From contig JACUTW010000016.1 in assembly GCA_014859605.1 (NCBI GenBank), positions 1 to 40,028 of the forward strand: DNA of 40,028 nucleotides, given 5' to 3'. The position numbers and the translations under genes were made by a program. Of the stretch, positions 22,956-34,097 are shown piece by piece. The notes under the pieces are model-generated. The model was not told the DNA's origin. It saw only the letters and a program-made list of their open reading frames with translations, and did not search any database. Every line of letters starts with the position of its first letter. Positions within the stretch are counted from its first letter, which is position 1. This stretch comes from Desulfuromonadales bacterium (GTDB lineage: Bacteria > Desulfobacterota > Desulfuromonadia > Desulfuromonadales > UBA2197).

Positions 22956-23059
22956 AATTATGAGTAAAGAGGTCATGTTTATTTGAAAGTTCTTATTAAA
23001 TATTACACATATAAATGAATAGTTGTCCGATTGTTTGGTTGGGCGTCTGTTTGCTGGAG

Positions 23060-26000
23060 ATGAAAATGGGTCGTAACAACGGGAGTCGAACGATGGTCAA
23101 ATTGATGAAGATGGGTCTAATCGCTCTGGTCGGAGTCGTGATCTGGGGTTTTACTCCGGGAGTTGTTTTTGCTGCAAAAAGTCACACAGTTATCTGTAAC
23201 GAGTGTCATCGCTCTTCGGCCGGTCCCCGGGAGATGGGTAATCTTTGCGTCAATTGTCACACGAAAACTGAAATATTCGCTACTACGGGGGCCAGGTTTA
23301 ATCTTGCCACGGCCAGTAATGCTTTGGGAAATAACCCGAATCCGGTTGACGGCTCCGGTGCCGAGACTTCACACTTTTGGGGGGGGAATTCGACCCTTCA
23401 AGCCGCAGCCGGTTCGGCGCATCCCCCGACATCTTTCTATACCAGCCGCTACTCCATCTCTAAAAATCGCATTACCTGTACGATCTGTCATGACCCCCAT
23501 GTTGAGGAAGGGACAATGCTTGTCCGTGCTGCTGTTGCCGGTGACGTGATCTGTCAGCAGTGTCACAGCAGCTGGTTTGTCCCCACTCCCAACGCAACCC
23601 TGACCCATCCGATCGTTGCCGACTACGCAGCGGTTGCTGCCGCAAAACCCAATGATTACCGGGCGACCGTGATCAATGCCGGCAGTGGCGATGTGCGACT
23701 CGTTAATGGCGGCGTCTCCTGTACCTCCTGCCATGGGACCCATTATGCCGACTCTTCCTCGGCAACCATCGATGGAAAAACAGCTTATAATGAATTAACC
23801 CTGGCTCAGGGCGACGGCAATATCCTGCGGAGCGACGGCCCCTTGCGCACCGGTCCGACTCGCAACGGTGCTAACGGCACCGCCCAGCTGCGCTCCAATC
23901 TCTGCCAGGCTTGTCACACTATCGAACTGCACGGACAGGGAACCAGCGGCGACCACATGCTCGGCTGCCTCGATTGTCACGGCGGTCACGCTTACAATGG
24001 CGGCACCCCCAACGCTTATATCCTCAACAAGATGACGCCGGGTGCCGTACCGACTCGCATCAACGGCGTCAATAGCGCCGCGGCGCAGATTACCTTCCCT
24101 AACTACCCGAATGGCGGCTCGACCCGCACCAAGTGGGCGGATGATGTTGCCGGCACGGCGGATGGTTTCTGTGAAAAGTGTCACGGCGATTCCAACAGTG
24201 TCGCCATGGTTGCCAAAGCCGCCGAACATGAAGCGGGGAATACCAACGAATGTAGCGCCTGCCACAAACATAATGACCCGGCGAATCTTTATTCCTTCAA
24301 TCGTGACGCTTCGGCGGCGACCTGCGGTCAGTGTCACGGCTTCCCCCCTTACAAGAACGTCCCCGGCGATCGAACCCTGGTACCTGCCAATGACGGTGGT
24401 TATGCCGAGAACAATTCAGGGGATGCGAATACCCCATATGATTATGTCAACAGCACCACGCACGAAAAGGATGAAACGAAAACCGGACATAAAGTCCATG
24501 CCGGTGCCGATCTGCCGATCAGTCCGGCCGGTGTCGGTGACTGGTATTTCGTCGGTGTTTCCGGGGTTGATAACTGTAAGGTCTGTCACGGCCCCGATGC
24601 CGGCGCTGCCGCCGGTGGCCATCGTGAGGCTCCGGCGACCCGTCCCAACACATTCCGTGACGTCCCCTTCGATGGCATCGCCAAGACCGGTGGCATGAAT
24701 CCGGTTTACCAGCTCAACTCGCCTTGGACCTGTTCCGCTGTTTACTGTCATACCAACGGAGCCCCTTACACCGGCGCCAGCCGTCCGACCCGTAACTACA
24801 CCGGGGTCAACGTCACTCCGGCCTGGGTCGGGACCGGTGGATCTTACGCCAACGGTGGTTTTGGCTCCATTTACAATACGGCCTCACGCTGTGCTAGCTG
24901 CCACGGCAACAGCACCGCCACCATGACCAGCAAGTCGAACTCCCCGGCGCATCAGGCGCACATGGGGGCGGCGACGACTTTAAATATGGGTAAAGTCTTT
25001 GATTGCAAGATTTGTCATGTGAATTCTGCGAGCAGCGCGACAGCCCTTGCGGCCGGAGCCATGGACGGACGCAGCGGCGGCAAACACGTCAATGGCGTCA
25101 TTGATGTTGATTTTGATACCGTTGCCTACAACGGAGAATTAACTGGTTCTACTTACACAGCCACGACCGGCGTCTGCGCCACCTACTGCCATAACGTCAC
25201 CGGCGCTGCCGGCGCTATGGCCGCTGACTGGGATATAGCCACCGACATGCAGTGCGATAGTTGTCACGGCGGCCTCGCCAGCGACAGCAGCGGCAACGGC
25301 GGCTACGGCCCGATCACCACCGGTTCGCACGGCCGCCATATCCTCACCTCCGGTACTGGCCCGAAACTCCTTTGTGCCGAGTGCCACGGTGCCGGTTCTG
25401 ACGCCGGTACCCATGCCGGCCATTTTGACGGCATCGTCAATATGAAGGTGGCGGTGGACACAGGAAGTTTTGGCAGCGACAGCGTTTCCATTTGCAAAGA
25501 GTGCCACGGTTACGATGCTGAACCCGGTGAAGTCCTGCCGGTCTGGGGGAATCCGGCAACCACCGACTGTGCGACCTGTCATGCCGGGAGCTCGTGCGGG
25601 GCTGATTTCAACGGCAAGACGCCACCGGTCTTTAACTATGCCCGTTCTACCGGTCATAACCGCACAAGCGGCAACTACCCGGTTTCCGGCAATGTGCCGG
25701 CTAACAGCAACTGTCTGGATTGCCACGCCGCCGATAGTGCCGGCCATTGGAACGGCACCTCCGGGGATGCACCGATGCTGCGTAGCGACCTTGGCTTCCC
25801 GGCGACATATACTGGCAACGAAAACGCTTTCTGCGGCAACTGTCATGGCACCGCCCCGGCGCATCCGACCCGGAGTGCCTCGGTGGCGACCCGTAATATC
25901 AATACCCATCAAAGTAAACTTTGCGCGGCCTGCCATAATGTCCATGGCACCAGCAATATTCAGATGATTATCGCCAGTCGCACCGAGCAGAACACCCGCG

Positions 26001-29000
26001 ACAATTCCGGGACCGGCGCCTACGGCGGCACGGTCAACTTTACCGCCCTCACCGGTTCGGATTCCTACGACGAAGATGACGGCGCTGTTGGCGGTGCCGG
26101 CGAGCTCAACGCCGATGACCTTTGCGCCACCTGTCACAGCGCTGCCGGCGGCACGAACCACAATAACCTCGAAGGTACCGGTGTCACGCATTATCAGGGC
26201 GAGAATTGCATGACTTGTCATGCTTCGCACAAAGATAGCAGCGACGCCTTTAAACTTGGCGCCGGCACCGCTTGCAATGACTGTCATGGCTTCCCGCCGA
26301 CCAGCGCCGCGCACAGCAAACACTCCAAGTCAGCCAGCAACGACAAGGATATCGAAGATCGCAGCGACTGCGCTTATTGTCATACCGGCGCGGACCTTTA
26401 CACCTACGATCTTGGCATCGACCAGGCTGCCGGCGGCGCCCAGGGCAACCACGGGGTCAGCCGCGCCAACCGCCAGACGGTCATGCAGAATAATGTCAAG
26501 GTCGGTTTCAATAACAACGGCACCCCGACCAATTCGGCCGACGATACCTGTACGACGGCGTGTCATGCCTCGTCGATCGGTGACGGCTTCTGGACCGATG
26601 CCAACGGGCTTAATTGCAATGCCTGTCACTACACCTCGACAACACCGTCCGGCAGCGCCAATACTGCGGCCGGCAGTCGCGCTGTCTCGGCCGTGCACAA
26701 CAAGCATTTCGATAAGAATGCGATGGCCTGCTCCAATTGTCACGACGTCAGTTACAGCCCGACGCTGGTTGCCGTGGCCGGTCCGCTGGTCCACATCAAT
26801 GACGCCAGCGGAGCCAACGAAGGGCTGCAGTACGAAGGGATGGCCAAAGCCCTTGCCGACGAAGCCGCTGTCGTTCGCACCAACATGACCTGGAACGACA
26901 CTCTTAACACCTGCTCCGGTTCGGGGATCGGTCTCGGCTGTCATGCCTCCGGCACCCCGGACTGGGATATCGTCATTCCCAACAGCAATGCCGGCTGTCT
27001 TGAGTGTCATACCAACACCACCAACGCCGCCTTCAATCCGGTCTCCGGTCTGCATAACAACGCCGTCCTGCCGACCGTGACCGGAAATGCCCACGACGGC
27101 AGCTTTGATAATGGCAGCGGCGGCAGTGCCGACTGCGTGACTTGTCACAGCTTGACGCCGACGGTGGTTGCAGCTAACCACATCAACGGCACCCTCAACA
27201 TCGGCACGGCCATCACCCAGCAGGCGATCGTCGGTTACACCGTGGCGACCGCCGACTGTGCCACATCCTGCCACAGCGCCGGCACTACCTGGCGTTATAA
27301 GTGGTCGTCCACGGCTTACAACAGCAATGGTACAGAGTGCGCCAACTGTCACGGCGACTACGCCAGCGGCTGGACCACTGGTGTGTCACCCCACACCGAG
27401 TTCCCGAACCGCGGCAACAAACATAACAACGTCGGCAACCTGACCTACCCCTGTTCCGACTGCCACGCCATCGGTTCGGCCGGCTACAAGTGGACCAGCA
27501 AGTGGGATCCGACCGGCGCCAACAGCCACCACGGCGACGACAAGATCACCATGAACCAGGTGGCCGGGGTCAACACCTTCGCCATCGACACCGCACCCAA
27601 CCCGGATCGCGCCGGCTGCACCACCTCAGCGTGTCACGGCAACAGCTCCGACTACAACTTCCGTGTCACCACCACGACGTTCACGACCCAAACCGTCACC
27701 GGCAATCCGCCGGAAGTCCTCTGCTCCGGTTGTCACGGCGGCACCGTCGGCACCAGTGCCAATGGCTACTGGCCGGATGGCGCCAATACTCGCGCTGATA
27801 ACGCCAGCGAGGACAACTCCGGCGCCCATCTCAAGCACATTGAGGCCCTGGCCAGCAAGGTTATGGGACAGACGATAGCCCAGTTGCTGACCGACAACGT
27901 CGGGGTCGGCGGCGCTCCCTGGAATACCGCTACGTCCGACACCAAGCAGAAGGAGCTGTGCACCTACTGCCACGGAACCACAAGCAACCCGATCGATGCG
28001 ACCCACGGTCTGCTCTCTTATCTGCCGGCCGATGTCAGCAGCATGTTCACCCTGTGGGGCAAGGTGGCGGATAACGGTGTTTACAATGCCGGCACCTATA
28101 CCTGCGCCACGGTCGATTGCCACTTCAATAAAACGACACCGACCACCAACGACTGGTACGATGCCCTTGGCAACGGCACCTGCATCATGTGCCACCTCGA
28201 CGCTCCTGCCGAAGCCAAGCACGCCGCCCACACCGGCGCGGTGGCAACCTATGGCCGGACCATCAGCTGTGCTGACTGCCATGAGGCGGCGACCAACTGG
28301 GCGACCAACACCGCCCCGGCCAGCGGCCACCTTGACGGCAATTACACTGTCGCCGGCGCGGTGGCCTTCACCTACACCAGCAACTCCTGCGGCACCAACG
28401 ACTGCCACGAAGACGGCAAGGGCGGCGCGCCGAAGACCAACCCTTATCCGTGGAACGGCGCTGCCTTGAGCGGCTGTGGCTTCTGTCACGACGCTGCGCC
28501 GACGACCGACGCCCACACTGTGCATCTGGCGGCCAAGGTCTCCAGTTACGTGCCGGGCAGCTGCAACGATTGCCACACTGCCGGCAGCAACGCTGCGCAT
28601 ATCGATAACAGCGTCAGCTACGCCGGTCAGATCAGCGATGCGCCGGGTAACGGCTCCTGCACCAACACCTGCCACCTCTCGCCGGAAGCCGGCGACTGGA
28701 CCGGTGGCTCCTCGGCCATCGCCTGCACCGACTGCCACAGTGGCAGCGGCGCCTCGGCCTACATCGGCGGCGACAAGAGCAGCGTTGCCGGCCCGAACCA
28801 CATGCCGCAGTACAATATGCACCCGGTCACACCGAGCGTCACCGGCAAGCTCCACACCGCTGCCGGCCTGAGCACCGCCTGCAGCACCTGTCACACCACA
28901 TTGGCCGGGCGCGCCACCCACATCAACGGCGTCTGGGCGGCAGATGATGCCGACAATACCAATGACCAGCACCGCGGGCTCTTTGCCGGCTTTACCGACG

Positions 29001-32000
29001 GCACGATCCCGACCTGCACGACCGCCTGCCACAGTGTCGGCACCGCCTGGACCTACAAGTGGTCAGCTTCGGCAGCCCTGACCGACGGCAGCCAGTGCGC
29101 CAACTGTCACGGCACCTTCGCAGCCGGCTGGAATAGCGGCGTGATGCACGCCGGCACCGGTGCGCGCGGCAACGGCGCCCATACCGCCGTCGGCACCCTC
29201 GGCTTCCCCTGTACCGATTGCCATGCCCTCGGCGCCAGCAACGGCGCTTATCCCTTTACCTATACCAGTAACGACTGGGCCGCCACCGATGCCAGCGCCA
29301 CCACCAAGCATGGCGACGGCTTCATCACCCTGAACAGCACCGGCACCAGTTGGGCACGGGTCTCTGGCCGCTCCGGCTGTGCCGGTTGTCACGAAGGTGC
29401 AGAGGTCGGCGGCAATGCTCACGACTATCCGGCCTCGACCTGGACTGCGCAGACCGTCGCCGGCGTCGCTCCCGACGTCAGCGGCAGCTGCACCGCCTGC
29501 CACGGCGGCAGCGAGTATTGGCCGGACGGGACGGTCTCACCGGATCGCGCCGGTAAGCATGAGGCTCACGTTCACGCCATTGCCACCAAAATGGCGGGTG
29601 GCAACAGTGCCGCTAACCGCAACGCTTCCTGTGACTACTGTCACCCCAACCCGGGGGCCAATGGCCACAATACCGGCGGCGGTGCTACGGCGACCGTCGG
29701 CCCCTTCAAGAATATTCTCACCGGTGCCTTCAGTGATCCCGATGGTATCCTCAACGCCGGCGACTCGACCTGCTCCACGGTCGACTGCCACTTCAACAAC
29801 GCGGTCACTCCGCATTGGTATGCCGACACCTACCCGCCGGCGCAGGTAACCCTGAGTGCCGTTGCCGTAGATCCGGCCACTAACCCGCGGGCAATCAAGC
29901 TCAGCTGGACCTCGCCTGGCGATGACGCCAATGTCGCCAACACCACGGTTTATCGTTACGACATGCGCTACGGTACCAGCAGTGGTATCGCCAGCGATTT
30001 CAACAGCCTTACCAATCATGTGGGCGGATTGCCCCTCGCCTACATGCAGGGGACTGTGCAGGAGGTGCTGGTCGACAACCTGACCCCGGGCACCACTTAC
30101 TACTTCTCGATGCGTAGTCAGGATGCCGCCGGCAACTGGTCGACTCCGTCGGCGGTGGTTAGTGCCGTCGCCAGTGGCGATACAGTCAAGCCTTACTTCG
30201 GTGGCGTCGACCGTGCTTACAAAGGGGACGAATCAGCCACCATCAACGTCGAGTGGTCGCATGCCGAAGACCACACCATGCCGGTCACCTACCAGTTATG
30301 GATGAAGAGCCTCGCGGCCGGACCGTTGGTCATGCGTACCGATGCGCCTTTGATTACCGGCATCAAGGGATACAAGTACCAGCTCACTGCCGCCAACGGC
30401 GTGGTCAACGACGAAGAGTACCAGATCGGTGTGCGTGCCTGCGACGGTGTCACTCCGACCGCCAACTGTGACAGCAACATCGAGATCGTCTCGGTGACGC
30501 CGACAGCAGTGCCGCTGGTTGGCAAGACCTATCCGATCTTCCGTGCTAACGGCGCCGCCAGCGGTGGCTACGTCGGACTGGAGAAGGGTGCCAGCTTTAC
30601 TGCGGCTGCGACCTCGGCCCTGCCGGTGACTTTCCGCCCGGCGGCTAACCAGAATTACCCGTCGACCTACTTCGTTGATGGCTTCAGCCTTTATATTACT
30701 AACGGCAACGCGACCTCGACGATTCGCGCCACCCTCGGCTACTCGACGGGGAACAACTTCACCGCCTTCACTCCGGCGGTGACCGCCGAGGTGAGCATGG
30801 CTGCCCGAGCCAAAGGGATCAAGGGCTTCAAGCTCTCCGACATCGCTGGCAAGCAGATCAACTCCGGACAAAGTCTAGCGGTGCAGTTGACCGTAGTTTC
30901 CGGCGCAGTCACCAGCGTCGGCTGGGGGAGCGCCGCTAACGACGGTACTCTGACCGCCGCTGAGCGATTGGTCAACGTCGCCCCGACCAGTCCCAATCTG
31001 CAGGGGACGGTCACTGGTGCACTGGTCAACCTCACCTGGACGGAGTCGACCGACGGTGCCGACGCGGTGGACGATACGGTGCATTACGACCTGTACGGTT
31101 CGGATGACAACGGCGCGACCTATGAGTACCTGATCGCCACCGGTCTGTCGGCAGACACCATCAGCTACACTTGGAACACCCAACTACACGGCATTGCTCT
31201 AGAGGGCGCGGCCAACGTGGCGGTCAAGATCAAGGCCGGCGATGGCTATGCCCACACCGAGTCGATCAAGACAGGGCTGCCGGTTAACAATCTTGCTGAT
31301 AATGTTGCGCCCAACGCCATCACCGACCTGGTGGTCAAGCGTCGCGCCAAGGCAGGCTCCGTCATGCTGCGCTGGACCGCTCCTGGCGACGACTTTGAAA
31401 ACAATGGCCGCGCCGCTTACTACGATGTGCGCTATTCTACCAGCGCCATCACCGAGGGGAACTTTGCCTTAGCCACCCGCTTCTACGGCGCGCCGCAGCC
31501 GACCTTCGGTGGCCAGATTCAGGAGATGGAGATTACTGGCCTCACGCCGTTGACACCCTACTACTTCGCCGTCAAGACCTACGACGAAGGGGGAAATGGC
31601 TCGCCGATTTCGACCCCTAAGTACACCAGCCCCTCTCCCACCGATCAGGAGATCGGTGGTCCGCGCTGTGGCATGTGTCATACCACCGCACCGAGCGTTG
31701 TCGAGAGTGTCGGCAACCACCGCATTCACGGGATTACCATCGCCGACTGTGTCAAGTGTCATGGCGGCGCGGTCGCCAGTTTCGGCCTTGATCATCAGGA
31801 CGGTCAGCTCCGCATGGGTTGGGGTGCCGGTGGCCCCCAACAGGCGATCATCAGCGGCAACCGCGTTTACTACACCGACGATGGTACCCCCGGCGGCAAC
31901 GTCATCTATGACGATATCAACGGTGGCGGCGGCTTCTACAACAACAACTACAACGGCATTGGCGATGGCATCGACAACGGTACCTGTGCCAACTTTGCCG

Positions 32001-33967
32001 CCGGTTGTCATGGTCCGGCTGGCTCCCCCGGCTACGAACAGCCGAACTGGATCTCCACGGCCAAGCTCAACTGCGCCAACTGCCACGGTGACCCGAGCCG
32101 GGTGAAGGACTCGGTCTACAACCGCCCCTTCGACTCCAACACCAGCGGCGGCACTGTCGCCACCGACCAGGTCAAGGGTTCGCCGCCGATCGACAACCAT
32201 GGTCTTTCCAGCGGCAAGTACGTCGGCCTGCATGAGAAGCATCTCAACTATTCTTTCCGCTTCGCCAAGGGGGACAGCTGTAATCTTTGTCACCCCGGCC
32301 GTTACAGCGATAAAAACGACCTCGACGGCAAACACGCTGATGGCTACATTGATGTCAAACTTTACACCGTCGCCGCTGGTGACAATGCCCTTTGGGAGGC
32401 AGGTGTCGATGTTGCTCCCGGTAGCTGCAGCAATATGTCACCTAACAGCTGTCATCCTTCAGCCTCAACCCCGATTTGGGACAGCTCAGAAAGCTTTGAC
32501 TGTGTCGAATGTCACGGTTTTGCCGGCACCTCCCCGAGCCATGTCACCGACCCTGCCGGCACGGTGAACACCGCAGACAAAGGCTGGGCCACTGACCCGA
32601 TGGTTGGCAACTGTACCTACTGTCACCCCGGTGGCCATCCCCTCGACGACCTCGGCGGCACCATGCTGATCCTGGCCAACAGCTCCCAGGTCGGCATCAA
32701 CTACAAGTCCGGCGGCATTCACCTGAAGAAGTCGATCGGCGGCCGCGCTGCGCGGCAGACTGAAGCCGAGCTCTGCTGGCAGTGCCACGATGCTAACGGC
32801 ATCTCCGAGTGGGGTGCGGATACAGGAAGCAACAACACGGCGACTGTGCCGCCAAACGGCTCAAACTATAACTATGGCAGCGTGACGACCTCCAACTGGA
32901 CTACCGCGACTTGGAGCAGTCCTATTGCTGAATTCAGCTACAAAACCGGCGCGATCCAGTCGACCCACTCGACCCACGAACTCGGAACCAGCGCAGTCAC
33001 CGGGGCAATGGGTAGTTACACTGAGACAAAAGATACAGTTGATAAAATCCGTTGTTCCAACTGTCACGACGTACACAATATGAACAAAGCACCGGGAGAT
33101 AATGTTAGCGGCCAGCCCTACCTGCGCGGTACCTGGATTCGCAACCCCTATCCCGAGGATGGCGCTCCTTGGAACAAGGCGTATGCAACAGTGATCGCTG
33201 GCTACGGCCCAGTCCCGCGTGCCGGCGGTAACGAAATGGGTGGATACCAGATTGACCAGAACAATGGTAACCCAACAGCAGGTATGTCATTAGCGACATC
33301 TGCCGGCATCTGCACCCTCTGTCATGGGAGCAATGTCGACACGATGGATAAGACCACTGGCGAGAACCTTTGGATTGGCACTAATGGTCACAGCAACGCG
33401 ACTCTTGGCGGGACTGCCAGTGCCGCGGCCAATATCTTTGGTAACGGTATCGGCGGTAGAGCCGTTGCTGTCGGTGACGCCAACACTAAAGTACTGTCGG
33501 CTACCGATGGAAAAATGGGCGCAGCAGATGTTTATGATATGGGATTACAGATCATGCCCAATACCCTAGGAGTGACAACGGCGTATGGCATGGGTTACCG
33601 GGGCAACGACTCGCAGGGCTATGCCCCGACTATTAGTCAAACAAGAGGGTATAATAGTTACCAATGGGGTGCCACAGTTGATCAGACAACAACAGATGTT
33701 GGTTACCATGCATTTACTTGTTCAAAGTGCCACAACCCGCATGCTTCGCGACTGCCGAAGTTGATGATTACTAATTGTCTCGATACCTCTCATAACACCT
33801 GGCAGTCGGGTAGTAATGGTGCCAACGGTCAAACCCAAAGTTATTGGACTGCTAGTACTGAAGACAGTGGGGAGATGGCGGCTACCTGGAATACCGCCCA
33901 GAACTGCCACCGGTACGATCCAAATACCAATGGCGGCGGCGGTTGGAATAAAGTCACCCCGTGGTAA
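23060..33967 (+). CDS. Giant secreted multiheme c-type cytochrome (CxxxxCH/CxxCH-domain family) with fibronectin-III-like domains
   Basis: ORF open from 23015; likely start 23060 or 23093; Sec signal 'MGLIALVGVVIWGFTPGVVFA'; hand count of 53 CXXCH motifs plus 13 CXnCH (n=3,4,6,7,9); FN3-like block about 29831-31620. Confidence 0.93.
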   Translation: MKMGRNNGSRTMVKLMKMGLIALVGVVIWGFTPGVVFAAKSHTVICNECHRSSAGPREMGNLCVNCHTKTEIFATTGARFNLATASNALGNNPNPVDGSGAETSHFWGGNSTLQAAAGSAHPPTSFYTSRYSISKNRITCTICHDPHVEEGTMLVRAAVAGDVICQQCHSSWFVPTPNATLTHPIVADYAAVAAAKPNDYRATVINAGSGDVRLVNGGVSCTSCHGTHYADSSSATIDGKTAYNELTLAQGDGNILRSDGPLRTGPTRNGANGTAQLRSNLCQACHTIELHGQGTSGDHMLGCLDCHGGHAYNGGTPNAYILNKMTPGAVPTRINGVNSAAAQITFPNYPNGGSTRTKWADDVAGTADGFCEKCHGDSNSVAMVAKAAEHEAGNTNECSACHKHNDPANLYSFNRDASAATCGQCHGFPPYKNVPGDRTLVPANDGGYAENNSGDANTPYDYVNSTTHEKDETKTGHKVHAGADLPISPAGVGDWYFVGVSGVDNCKVCHGPDAGAAAGGHREAPATRPNTFRDVPFDGIAKTGGMNPVYQLNSPWTCSAVYCHTNGAPYTGASRPTRNYTGVNVTPAWVGTGGSYANGGFGSIYNTASRCASCHGNSTATMTSKSNSPAHQAHMGAATTLNMGKVFDCKICHVNSASSATALAAGAMDGRSGGKHVNGVIDVDFDTVAYNGELTGSTYTATTGVCATYCHNVTGAAGAMAADWDIATDMQCDSCHGGLASDSSGNGGYGPITTGSHGRHILTSGTGPKLLCAECHGAGSDAGTHAGHFDGIVNMKVAVDTGSFGSDSVSICKECHGYDAEPGEVLPVWGNPATTDCATCHAGSSCGADFNGKTPPVFNYARSTGHNRTSGNYPVSGNVPANSNCLDCHAADSAGHWNGTSGDAPMLRSDLGFPATYTGNENAFCGNCHGTAPAHPTRSASVATRNINTHQSKLCAACHNVHGTSNIQMIIASRTEQNTRDNSGTGAYGGTVNFTALTGSDSYDEDDGAVGGAGELNADDLCATCHSAAGGTNHNNLEGTGVTHYQGENCMTCHASHKDSSDAFKLGAGTACNDCHGFPPTSAAHSKHSKSASNDKDIEDRSDCAYCHTGADLYTYDLGIDQAAGGAQGNHGVSRANRQTVMQNNVKVGFNNNGTPTNSADDTCTTACHASSIGDGFWTDANGLNCNACHYTSTTPSGSANTAAGSRAVSAVHNKHFDKNAMACSNCHDVSYSPTLVAVAGPLVHINDASGANEGLQYEGMAKALADEAAVVRTNMTWNDTLNTCSGSGIGLGCHASGTPDWDIVIPNSNAGCLECHTNTTNAAFNPVSGLHNNAVLPTVTGNAHDGSFDNGSGGSADCVTCHSLTPTVVAANHINGTLNIGTAITQQAIVGYTVATADCATSCHSAGTTWRYKWSSTAYNSNGTECANCHGDYASGWTTGVSPHTEFPNRGNKHNNVGNLTYPCSDCHAIGSAGYKWTSKWDPTGANSHHGDDKITMNQVAGVNTFAIDTAPNPDRAGCTTSACHGNSSDYNFRVTTTTFTTQTVTGNPPEVLCSGCHGGTVGTSANGYWPDGANTRADNASEDNSGAHLKHIEALASKVMGQTIAQLLTDNVGVGGAPWNTATSDTKQKELCTYCHGTTSNPIDATHGLLSYLPADVSSMFTLWGKVADNGVYNAGTYTCATVDCHFNKTTPTTNDWYDALGNGTCIMCHLDAPAEAKHAAHTGAVATYGRTISCADCHEAATNWATNTAPASGHLDGNYTVAGAVAFTYTSNSCGTNDCHEDGKGGAPKTNPYPWNGAALSGCGFCHDAAPTTDAHTVHLAAKVSSYVPGSCNDCHTAGSNAAHIDNSVSYAGQISDAPGNGSCTNTCHLSPEAGDWTGGSSAIACTDCHSGSGASAYIGGDKSSVAGPNHMPQYNMHPVTPSVTGKLHTAAGLSTACSTCHTTLAGRATHINGVWAADDADNTNDQHRGLFAGFTDGTIPTCTTACHSVGTAWTYKWSASAALTDGSQCANCHGTFAAGWNSGVMHAGTGARGNGAHTAVGTLGFPCTDCHALGASNGAYPFTYTSNDWAATDASATTKHGDGFITLNSTGTSWARVSGRSGCAGCHEGAEVGGNAHDYPASTWTAQTVAGVAPDVSGSCTACHGGSEYWPDGTVSPDRAGKHEAHVHAIATKMAGGNSAANRNASCDYCHPNPGANGHNTGGGATATVGPFKNILTGAFSDPDGILNAGDSTCSTVDCHFNNAVTPHWYADTYPPAQVTLSAVAVDPATNPRAIKLSWTSPGDDANVANTTVYRYDMRYGTSSGIASDFNSLTNHVGGLPLAYMQGTVQEVLVDNLTPGTTYYFSMRSQDAAGNWSTPSAVVSAVASGDTVKPYFGGVDRAYKGDESATINVEWSHAEDHTMPVTYQLWMKSLAAGPLVMRTDAPLITGIKGYKYQLTAANGVVNDEEYQIGVRACDGVTPTANCDSNIEIVSVTPTAVPLVGKTYPIFRANGAASGGYVGLEKGASFTAAATSALPVTFRPAANQNYPSTYFVDGFSLYITNGNATSTIRATLGYSTGNNFTAFTPAVTAEVSMAARAKGIKGFKLSDIAGKQINSGQSLAVQLTVVSGAVTSVGWGSAANDGTLTAAERLVNVAPTSPNLQGTVTGALVNLTWTESTDGADAVDDTVHYDLYGSDDNGATYEYLIATGLSADTISYTWNTQLHGIALEGAANVAVKIKAGDGYAHTESIKTGLPVNNLADNVAPNAITDLVVKRRAKAGSVMLRWTAPGDDFENNGRAAYYDVRYSTSAITEGNFALATRFYGAPQPTFGGQIQEMEITGLTPLTPYYFAVKTYDEGGNGSPISTPKYTSPSPTDQEIGGPRCGMCHTTAPSVVESVGNHRIHGITIADCVKCHGGAVASFGLDHQDGQLRMGWGAGGPQQAIISGNRVYYTDDGTPGGNVIYDDINGGGGFYNNNYNGIGDGIDNGTCANFAAGCHGPAGSPGYEQPNWISTAKLNCANCHGDPSRVKDSVYNRPFDSNTSGGTVATDQVKGSPPIDNHGLSSGKYVGLHEKHLNYSFRFAKGDSCNLCHPGRYSDKNDLDGKHADGYIDVKLYTVAAGDNALWEAGVDVAPGSCSNMSPNSCHPSASTPIWDSSESFDCVECHGFAGTSPSHVTDPAGTVNTADKGWATDPMVGNCTYCHPGGHPLDDLGGTMLILANSSQVGINYKSGGIHLKKSIGGRAARQTEAELCWQCHDANGISEWGADTGSNNTATVPPNGSNYNYGSVTTSNWTTATWSSPIAEFSYKTGAIQSTHSTHELGTSAVTGAMGSYTETKDTVDKIRCSNCHDVHNMNKAPGDNVSGQPYLRGTWIRNPYPEDGAPWNKAYATVIAGYGPVPRAGGNEMGGYQIDQNNGNPTAGMSLATSAGICTLCHGSNVDTMDKTTGENLWIGTNGHSNATLGGTASAAANIFGNGIGGRAVAVGDANTKVLSATDGKMGAADVYDMGLQIMPNTLGVTTAYGMGYRGNDSQGYAPTISQTRGYNSYQWGATVDQTTTDVGYHAFTCSKCHNPHASRLPKLMITNCLDTSHNTWQSGSNGANGQTQSYWTASTEDSGEMAATWNTAQNCHRYDPNTNGGGGWNKVTPW
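27047..28135 (+). repeat. Internal heme module copy 1 within the giant cytochrome
   Basis: Protein-level repeat: '...VTGNAHD..CVTCH...CATSCHSAGTTWRYKWS...CANCHGDYASGW...CSDCHAIG...CSGCHGG...YWPDG...CTYCH...CATVDCHFN' paralleled at 28812-29802. Confidence 0.75.
28812..29802 (+). repeat. Internal heme module copy 2 within the giant cytochrome
   Basis: '...VTGKLH..CSTCH...CTTACHSVGTAWTYKWS...CANCHGTFAAGW...CTDCHALG...CTACHGG..EYWPDG...CDYCH...CSTVDCHFN'. Confidence 0.75.
29831..31620 (+). other. Heme-free fibronectin-III-like domain block inside the giant cytochrome
   Basis: FN3 patterns 'IKLSWTSPGDD...YDMRYGTSSG...VDNLTPGTTYYFSMRSQDAAGNWSTPSA' and 'VMLRWTAPGDDFENNGRAAYYDVRYSTSAI...ITGLTPLTPYYFAVKTYDEGGNGSPIS'; no CXXCH in this stretch. 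Confidence 0.8.
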
Positions 33968-33992
33968 TAACCATCTCACAAAGGAGGCGCTT

Positions 33993-34046
33993 ATGAAGTA
34001 TGTCAAACCGAGAGTTGTAGGGAGCGGCAACGTTCACCCCTGCTAA
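33993..34046 (+). CDS. Putative 17-aa peptide MKYVKPRVVGSGNVHPC
   Basis: ATG preceded by AAGGAGG (33981-33987) at 5-nt spacing; 25 nt after the giant cytochrome stop; followed by TAA and then a strong terminator. Confidence 0.6.
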   Translation: MKYVKPRVVGSGNVHPC

Positions 34047-34055
34047 AGCAAGAGA

Positions 34056-34097
34056 AGCCAAGGGCCGGGAGAAATTCTCCCGGCCCTTGGCTTTTTA
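34056..34097 (+). terminator. Rho-independent terminator of the cytochrome/peptide unit
   Basis: AGCCAAGGGCCGGGAGA-aat-TCTCCCGGCCCTTGGCTTTTT, near-perfect 17-bp stem plus T tract. Confidence 0.93.

Follow-up and report, generated by a model that had tools for sequence, protein, structure and literature searches.

A 17-codon gene behind a giant multiheme cytochrome is a probable dispersed precursor of the GeoRSP radical SAM system in Desulfuromonadales

Introduction

Immediately downstream of a gene for a giant multiheme cytochrome, a contig of a Desulfuromonadales bacterium carries an open reading frame of only 17 codons that ends in His-Pro-Cys. Is so short a reading frame a gene, and, if it is, what acts on its product? 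An earlier note on this DNA had proposed a RiPP-like precursor associated with giant cytochromes, with its maturase encoded elsewhere in the genome. Here, we follow up that proposal, using "the window" for the whole stretch of 40,028 nucleotides that was analyzed.

Results

A family of short peptides is conserved at the codon level. The placement of the open reading frame in the earlier note, together with the 5-nt spacing of its AAGGAGG, the 25-nt gap between the cytochrome stop and the peptide ATG, and the hairpin that follows, was confirmed throughout on the sequence (Table 1). Folding of this hairpin gives a minimum free energy of -41.8 kcal/mol (z = -9.3).

Table 1. Features of the peptide locus in the window.
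Feature	Position	Strand	Basis or remark
Giant multiheme c-type cytochrome, 3650 aa, 53 CxxCH, presumed upstream cistron	23015..33967	+	TIGR01904
Cytochrome C-terminus, GWNKVTPW-stop	33941..33967	+	Such a C-terminus only in peptide-carrying genomes
Shine-Dalgarno site, AAGGAGG	33981..33987	+	5 nt before the ATG of the peptide gene; direct reading
17-aa peptide gene, MKYVKPRVVGSGNVHPC	33993..34046	+	ATG...TAA, translation; dispersed copy of the GeoRSP-linked peptide family
Y-V-K-P-R-V codons, YxxPx[V/I] RRE-recognition motif, presumed leader	33999..34016	+	Translation; PMC13381572, PMC12710340
G-S-G-N-V-H-P-C codons, presumed core with the invariant Ser and C-terminal His-Pro-Cys	34020..34043	+	
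21-bp hairpin with a short T run, terminator-like, directly 3' of the peptide gene	~34052..34096	+	Fold z-score

The peptide has relatives throughout Desulfuromonadales, where at least 136 distinct copies share the consensus MK(K)YxKPxVVGS[SG]NVHPC-stop; no NCBIfam model matches it. A degenerate pattern, MK-x(1-3)-KP-...-HPC-stop, matched in 56 of the order's 136 genomes and not at all in a reversed control; most positive genomes hold between one and five copies. A genome-wide scan of the collection returned 106 stretches with the peptide, nearly all of them labelled Desulfuromonadales, Desulfuromonas, Geopsychrobacter, Malonomonas, Geothermobacter, Geoalkalibacter or Deltaproteobacteria. A single contig is labelled Phycisphaerae, but it has the HD/Bax-inhibitor context of Desulfuromonadales copies and is probably mis-binned. 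The degenerate pattern itself fixes HPC. With no constraint on the C-terminus, all genuine copies retained the HPC ending except one (G093:C122, which ends in VYPC), and the few remaining matches were recognizable noise, which rules out the ending as an artefact of the search.

Among 124 copies of 18 residues (115 distinct DNA sequences), pN was 0.155 and pS 0.764 (pN/pS 0.20), and the entropy in 18-residue copies was 0.44, 0.37 and 1.29 at the first, second and third codon positions. The flanks of the gene are near random except for the Shine-Dalgarno site; an SD-like site is present at 126 of 131 copies, and 87 of 134 copies are followed by a hairpin with a stem of 8 bp or more, versus 2 in shuffled sequence. 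The serine at position 12 is encoded by TCN in 47 of the 48 copies in GeoRSP cassettes (described below) and by AGY in 84 of the 88 copies dispersed elsewhere. No single synonymous substitution leads from one of these codon families to the other, and the serine has therefore persisted in two ancient paralogous lineages. The earlier note would have failed had related genomes lacked a conserved open reading frame or codon-level constraint at this site, and they have both. The 17-residue frame in the window is thus confirmed as a real gene of translated type, far beyond chance; its translation is inferred, with no direct evidence. At one locus (G125:C41:6395-6554), two copies stand in tandem about 100 nt apart.

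The N-terminus fits a known recognition motif. Discrete lasso-peptide RREs bind the motif [Y/W]xxPx[L/V/I/F/A] (PMC13381572), and related W/Y/LxxP motifs have been assigned to PqqD-type RREs (PMC12710340). The N-terminus of the peptide, Y-x-K-P-x-[V/I], fits the first of these, with Y in 123, P in 124 and V or I in 124 of the 124 18-mers at the motif positions (P is fixed by the search). The longer leader pattern proposed earlier, Y-x2-P-x-[L/V]-x3-G, holds only in part: Y-x2-P-x-[L/V] coincides with the published motif, but the terminal x3-G does not stand, the glycine being only 2 residues past the valine.

A paralogue lies inside a radical SAM cassette of the same genome. The source genome has three copies of the peptide: one in the window, one behind a second giant cytochrome with an identical GWNKVTPW C-terminus, and one inside a GeoRSP cassette. 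The search for radical SAM and RRE genes elsewhere in the genome that the earlier note had recommended leads to this cassette on contig C148, where the paralogue, MKRYTKPQVVGSSNVHPC, has a radical SAM/SPASM gene on one side and a SPASM gene on the other. The order of the genes is YedE-PqqD-rSAM-peptide-SPASM-Cys desulfurase. In NCBIfam, the radical SAM protein scores 431.8 bits against TIGR04303, above the cut-off of 400. The PqqD protein (TIGR04302, 87.2 bits, cut-off 100) and the SPASM protein (TIGR04304, 101.5 bits, cut-off 300) fall below theirs, yet these are still their best families. As judged from the sequences, they belong to a diverged Desulfuromonadales branch of GeoRSP with identical gene order.

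The domains of the cassette proteins agree with this assignment to families. The radical SAM protein matches PF04055 (88 bits) and the SPASM domain PF13186 (31 bits), carries its CxxxCxxC motif as CNFSCSHC, and has PqqE as its best solved relative. PqqD matches PF05402 at 54.2 bits (PqqD fold/RRE), and its model (pLDDT 88.7) is most similar to leader-bound TbiB1 (5v1v) and then to PqqD (5sxy); sequence profiles and structure matches concur. The SPASM partner (L033:8601-9590) shows no conserved CxxxCxxC in alignment, but it models as a radical SAM/SPASM fold similar, at modest confidence, to PqqE and SuiB, features that would make it probably a pseudo-radical-SAM partner. A YedE-type transporter of selenium/sulfur type (TIGR04112) precedes the cassette and a gene of the cysteine desulfurase family (TIGR01977) follows it (L033:6001-10744). 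The recurrence of these two neighbors hints at sulfur or selenium chemistry, by inference.

The peptide and GeoRSP occur together. Across the order, 48 of the 136 distinct copies are found in GeoRSP cassettes, directly after the radical SAM gene, and this place is the same in many genomes. GeoRSP was called present at a TIGR04303 score of at least 200 bits. Of the matches admitted in this way, 47 exceed the cut-off and 7 are partial, almost all of the latter truncated at a contig end; nothing below them scored more than 166 bits. By this measure, 54 of the 136 genomes have both peptide and GeoRSP, 2 have only the peptide, none has only GeoRSP, and 80 have neither (Fisher p ~5e-36, with genomes treated as independent). 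The two peptide-only genomes are drafts, 82 and 80 percent complete. Relatedness alone is insufficient to explain this near-perfect co-occurrence, because genera g1, g10 and g27 each contain some genomes with both and others with neither, the sole exceptions being the incomplete drafts G020 (g10) and G082 (g27).

Six genomes (G021, G092-G095 and G132) lack a peptide gene between the radical SAM and SPASM genes of the cassette but do carry dispersed copies; these copies are therefore the only known substrate candidates there. In another lineage, a diverged GeoRSP radical SAM gene (386 bits) has a stop codon that overlaps MKYIKPKTLGISTVHPC. Geobacterales differ: in their GeoRSP cassettes (L166-L215), the radical SAM and SPASM genes are directly adjacent with no HPC peptide, and a search of GeoRSP cassettes for tiny open reading frames, combined with the N-terminus pattern in 119 genomes, found a single genuine copy (G529). 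GeoRSP without an HPC peptide must be able to act on something else, which counts against the peptide as its substrate. A YedE-type transporter is often found within ~4 kb of these Geobacterales cassettes.

Many dispersed copies lie beside multiheme cytochromes. To characterize the surroundings of the peptide, we classed 132 distinct copies by the gene ending at most 300 nt upstream; the open reading frame calls were crude, so the counts are approximate. The upstream gene is the GeoRSP radical SAM gene in 47 cases, a multiheme cytochrome in 46, an FG-GAP/UnbV_ASPIC protein in 14 and an HD-domain protein in 5, with the remaining 20 copies being other, truncated or free-standing. Cytochromes ending in GWNxVTPW occur in 25 of the 56 peptide-positive genomes versus 0 of the 80 negative ones. 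They occupy 40 places in these 25 genomes, and at 20 of the 40 the peptide follows immediately 3'. It is possible that the ending is a recognition or sorting motif, or else a lineage effect. The 46 copies behind cytochromes comprise 27 after GWNxVTPW-like ends and 19 after others, several of which have F5/8-type C-terminal domains. When only copies with at least 4 kb of flank on each side were compared, an open reading frame with at least 5 CxxCH motifs was found within 4 kb of 13 of 16 dispersed copies versus 0 of 12 cassettes.

Dispersed copies also accompany hosts other than cytochromes, namely, FG-GAP/UnbV_ASPIC proteins, an HD/Bax-inhibitor operon and a rhodanese gene, and some appear to be free-standing. 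Six of the loci inspected have the peptide after an FG-GAP/UnbV_ASPIC protein; at one of them (L126), a 26-heme open reading frame lies ~0.5 kb downstream. Five others share a syntenic copy flanked by HD-domain and Bax-inhibitor-like genes, with an 8-heme open reading frame further downstream in two (L084 and L151). Four free-standing copies lie near a CarboxypepD_reg-type gene. A ResB cytochrome c biogenesis gene was confirmed near one of these (L039), and a similar open reading frame is present at two more (L062 and L161).

Known systems are similar in part. GeoRSP as curated (TIGR04302 PqqD, TIGR04303 radical SAM/SPASM, TIGR04304 SPASM) matches in that one copy sits inside the system and the radical SAM protein passes the curated cut-off; it differs in the sub-cut-off PqqD and SPASM proteins, in the peptide-free Geobacterales cassettes and in the copies on the cytochrome side, which lie outside the described system. 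The PQQ pathway (PqqA/PqqD/PqqE) likewise has a short precursor, a stand-alone PqqD chaperone and a radical SAM/SPASM enzyme. However, the GSSNVHPC core lacks the Glu/Tyr pair for the PqqA cross-link (the peptide has no Glu), precursor copies are many per genome, the radical SAM protein reaches only 119 bits against the TIGR02109 cut-off of 381, and no other pqq genes were recognized in the cassette. Mycofactocin (MftA/MftB/MftC), for which a redox role has been proposed (PMC3023750), shares a short precursor, an almost invariant C-terminal motif and an RRE with a radical SAM/SPASM enzyme. Here, too, the resemblance falls short: the radical SAM protein scores 192 bits against the TIGR03962 cut-off of 265, the peptide ends in HPC rather than VY, its genes accompany multiheme cytochromes instead of nicotinoproteins, and no other mft genes were recognized.

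Sactipeptides and ranthipeptides resemble the system inferred here in having a radical SAM/SPASM maturase acting on a Cys-bearing precursor under RRE guidance. The peptide, in contrast, has one invariant Cys, at its very C-terminal end, in 17 to 18 residues overall, and this single Cys makes a classical multi-ring sactipeptide impossible. Pearlins offer a parallel in the C-terminal Cys, which is the modified residue of the TglA-Cys scaffold; there, a tRNA donates the Cys and TglHI processes it, a precedent for chemistry at the C-terminus (PMC9016710). In the peptide, modification of the Cys is inferred, the residue is genetically encoded, and no TglB or TglHI was recognized in the GeoRSP cassette.

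Discussion

We hold with high confidence that the open reading frame is a dispersed GeoRSP precursor peptide that is modified in trans, with a product most likely serving electron transfer or cytochrome assembly. The paralogue in the cassette and the co-occurrence across genomes support what the earlier note had supposed, a RiPP-like precursor beside giant cytochromes and a maturase elsewhere, with modification itself remaining an inference.

The peptide gene would be translated as the final cistron, behind the cytochrome gene. The GeoRSP system on contig C148 comprises a PqqD-type RRE, a radical SAM/SPASM enzyme and a SPASM protein that lacks the cysteine motif of radical SAM enzymes. Its PqqD would bind the YxxKPxV N-terminus and present the GS[SG]NVHPC C-terminus to the radical SAM enzyme, which would modify the core; the likeliest site is the invariant C-terminal Cys or a position adjacent to it. 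MftC, acting on mycofactocin, sets a precedent for C-terminal chemistry. By analogy, the modification may be a C-terminal oxidation or decarboxylation, or it may be a thioether cross-link; there is no direct evidence that any modification occurs or of what kind it is. Export is likewise only inferred, and neither a peptidase nor an exporter could be identified among the genes of the GeoRSP cassette. With copies behind cytochrome genes, the cell would make modified peptide in step with its cytochromes, and this is what points to extracellular electron transfer or cytochrome assembly, with the product most likely a redox-active or metal- or heme-binding peptide. Such a role is suggested by gene placement alone.

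One possibility is that GeoRSP does modify the peptide but yields a signal, toxin or antimicrobial, with genes near cytochromes by chance and no part in electron transfer; this variant departs from our main reading solely in what the product does. Many radical SAM RiPPs are antimicrobials, and several hosts, such as the HD/Bax-inhibitor operon and the FG-GAP/UnbV_ASPIC proteins, are not cytochromes. We consider this unlikely, though not negligible: no immunity, toxin or exporter gene was recognized near the copies inspected, the core is nearly constant across families, unlike antimicrobial RiPP cores, and, where flanks are complete, cytochromes lie within 4 kb of most dispersed copies and of none of the cassettes.

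Alternatively, the peptide may never be modified and may act directly in cytochrome maturation by binding metal, heme or thiols through His-Pro-Cys, its place in the cassette reflecting shared regulation only. The many copies beside multiheme cytochromes, the His and Cys that almost never change, and the free-standing copies of one genus near a ResB gene would all fit. We give this reading very little credence, given the strict co-occurrence with the radical SAM gene, the position between the radical SAM and SPASM genes, the RRE-recognition motif retained in copies far from any cassette, and the diverged radical SAM-peptide pair in another lineage. A metal- or heme-binding or assembly-factor function of the mature product is not excluded. 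That only an RNA feature (SD site and terminator) is conserved at the ends of cytochrome operons, with the frame incidental, is refuted by the codon-level statistics for practical purposes, since amino acids are conserved amid third-position variability, both serine codon families encode the invariant Ser, and the flanks are near random outside the SD site, even though SD site and hairpin are present at most copies.

A PqqD/radical SAM RiPP system is itself already known; the new elements are the candidate substrate and its spread into cytochrome loci. No relevant paper on GeoRSP in this sense, or on the peptide sequence, was found in the literature searched, although papers or NCBI model comments beyond it may anticipate part of this. 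The peptide is thus a candidate substrate for a radical SAM system that has curated models and no precursor described in that literature. It also brings together RiPP biosynthesis and the multiheme cytochromes with which metal-respiring bacteria move electrons; our search found no overlap between the two fields. We tentatively propose, as a possibility we do not yet favor over its negation, that GeoRSP yields a redox cofactor derived from a peptide, or a ligand of heme or metal, that giant extracellular multiheme cytochromes incorporate or use, the precursor genes lying within the cytochrome operons and the product being matured in trans. If true, this would be a RiPP serving extracellular electron transfer.
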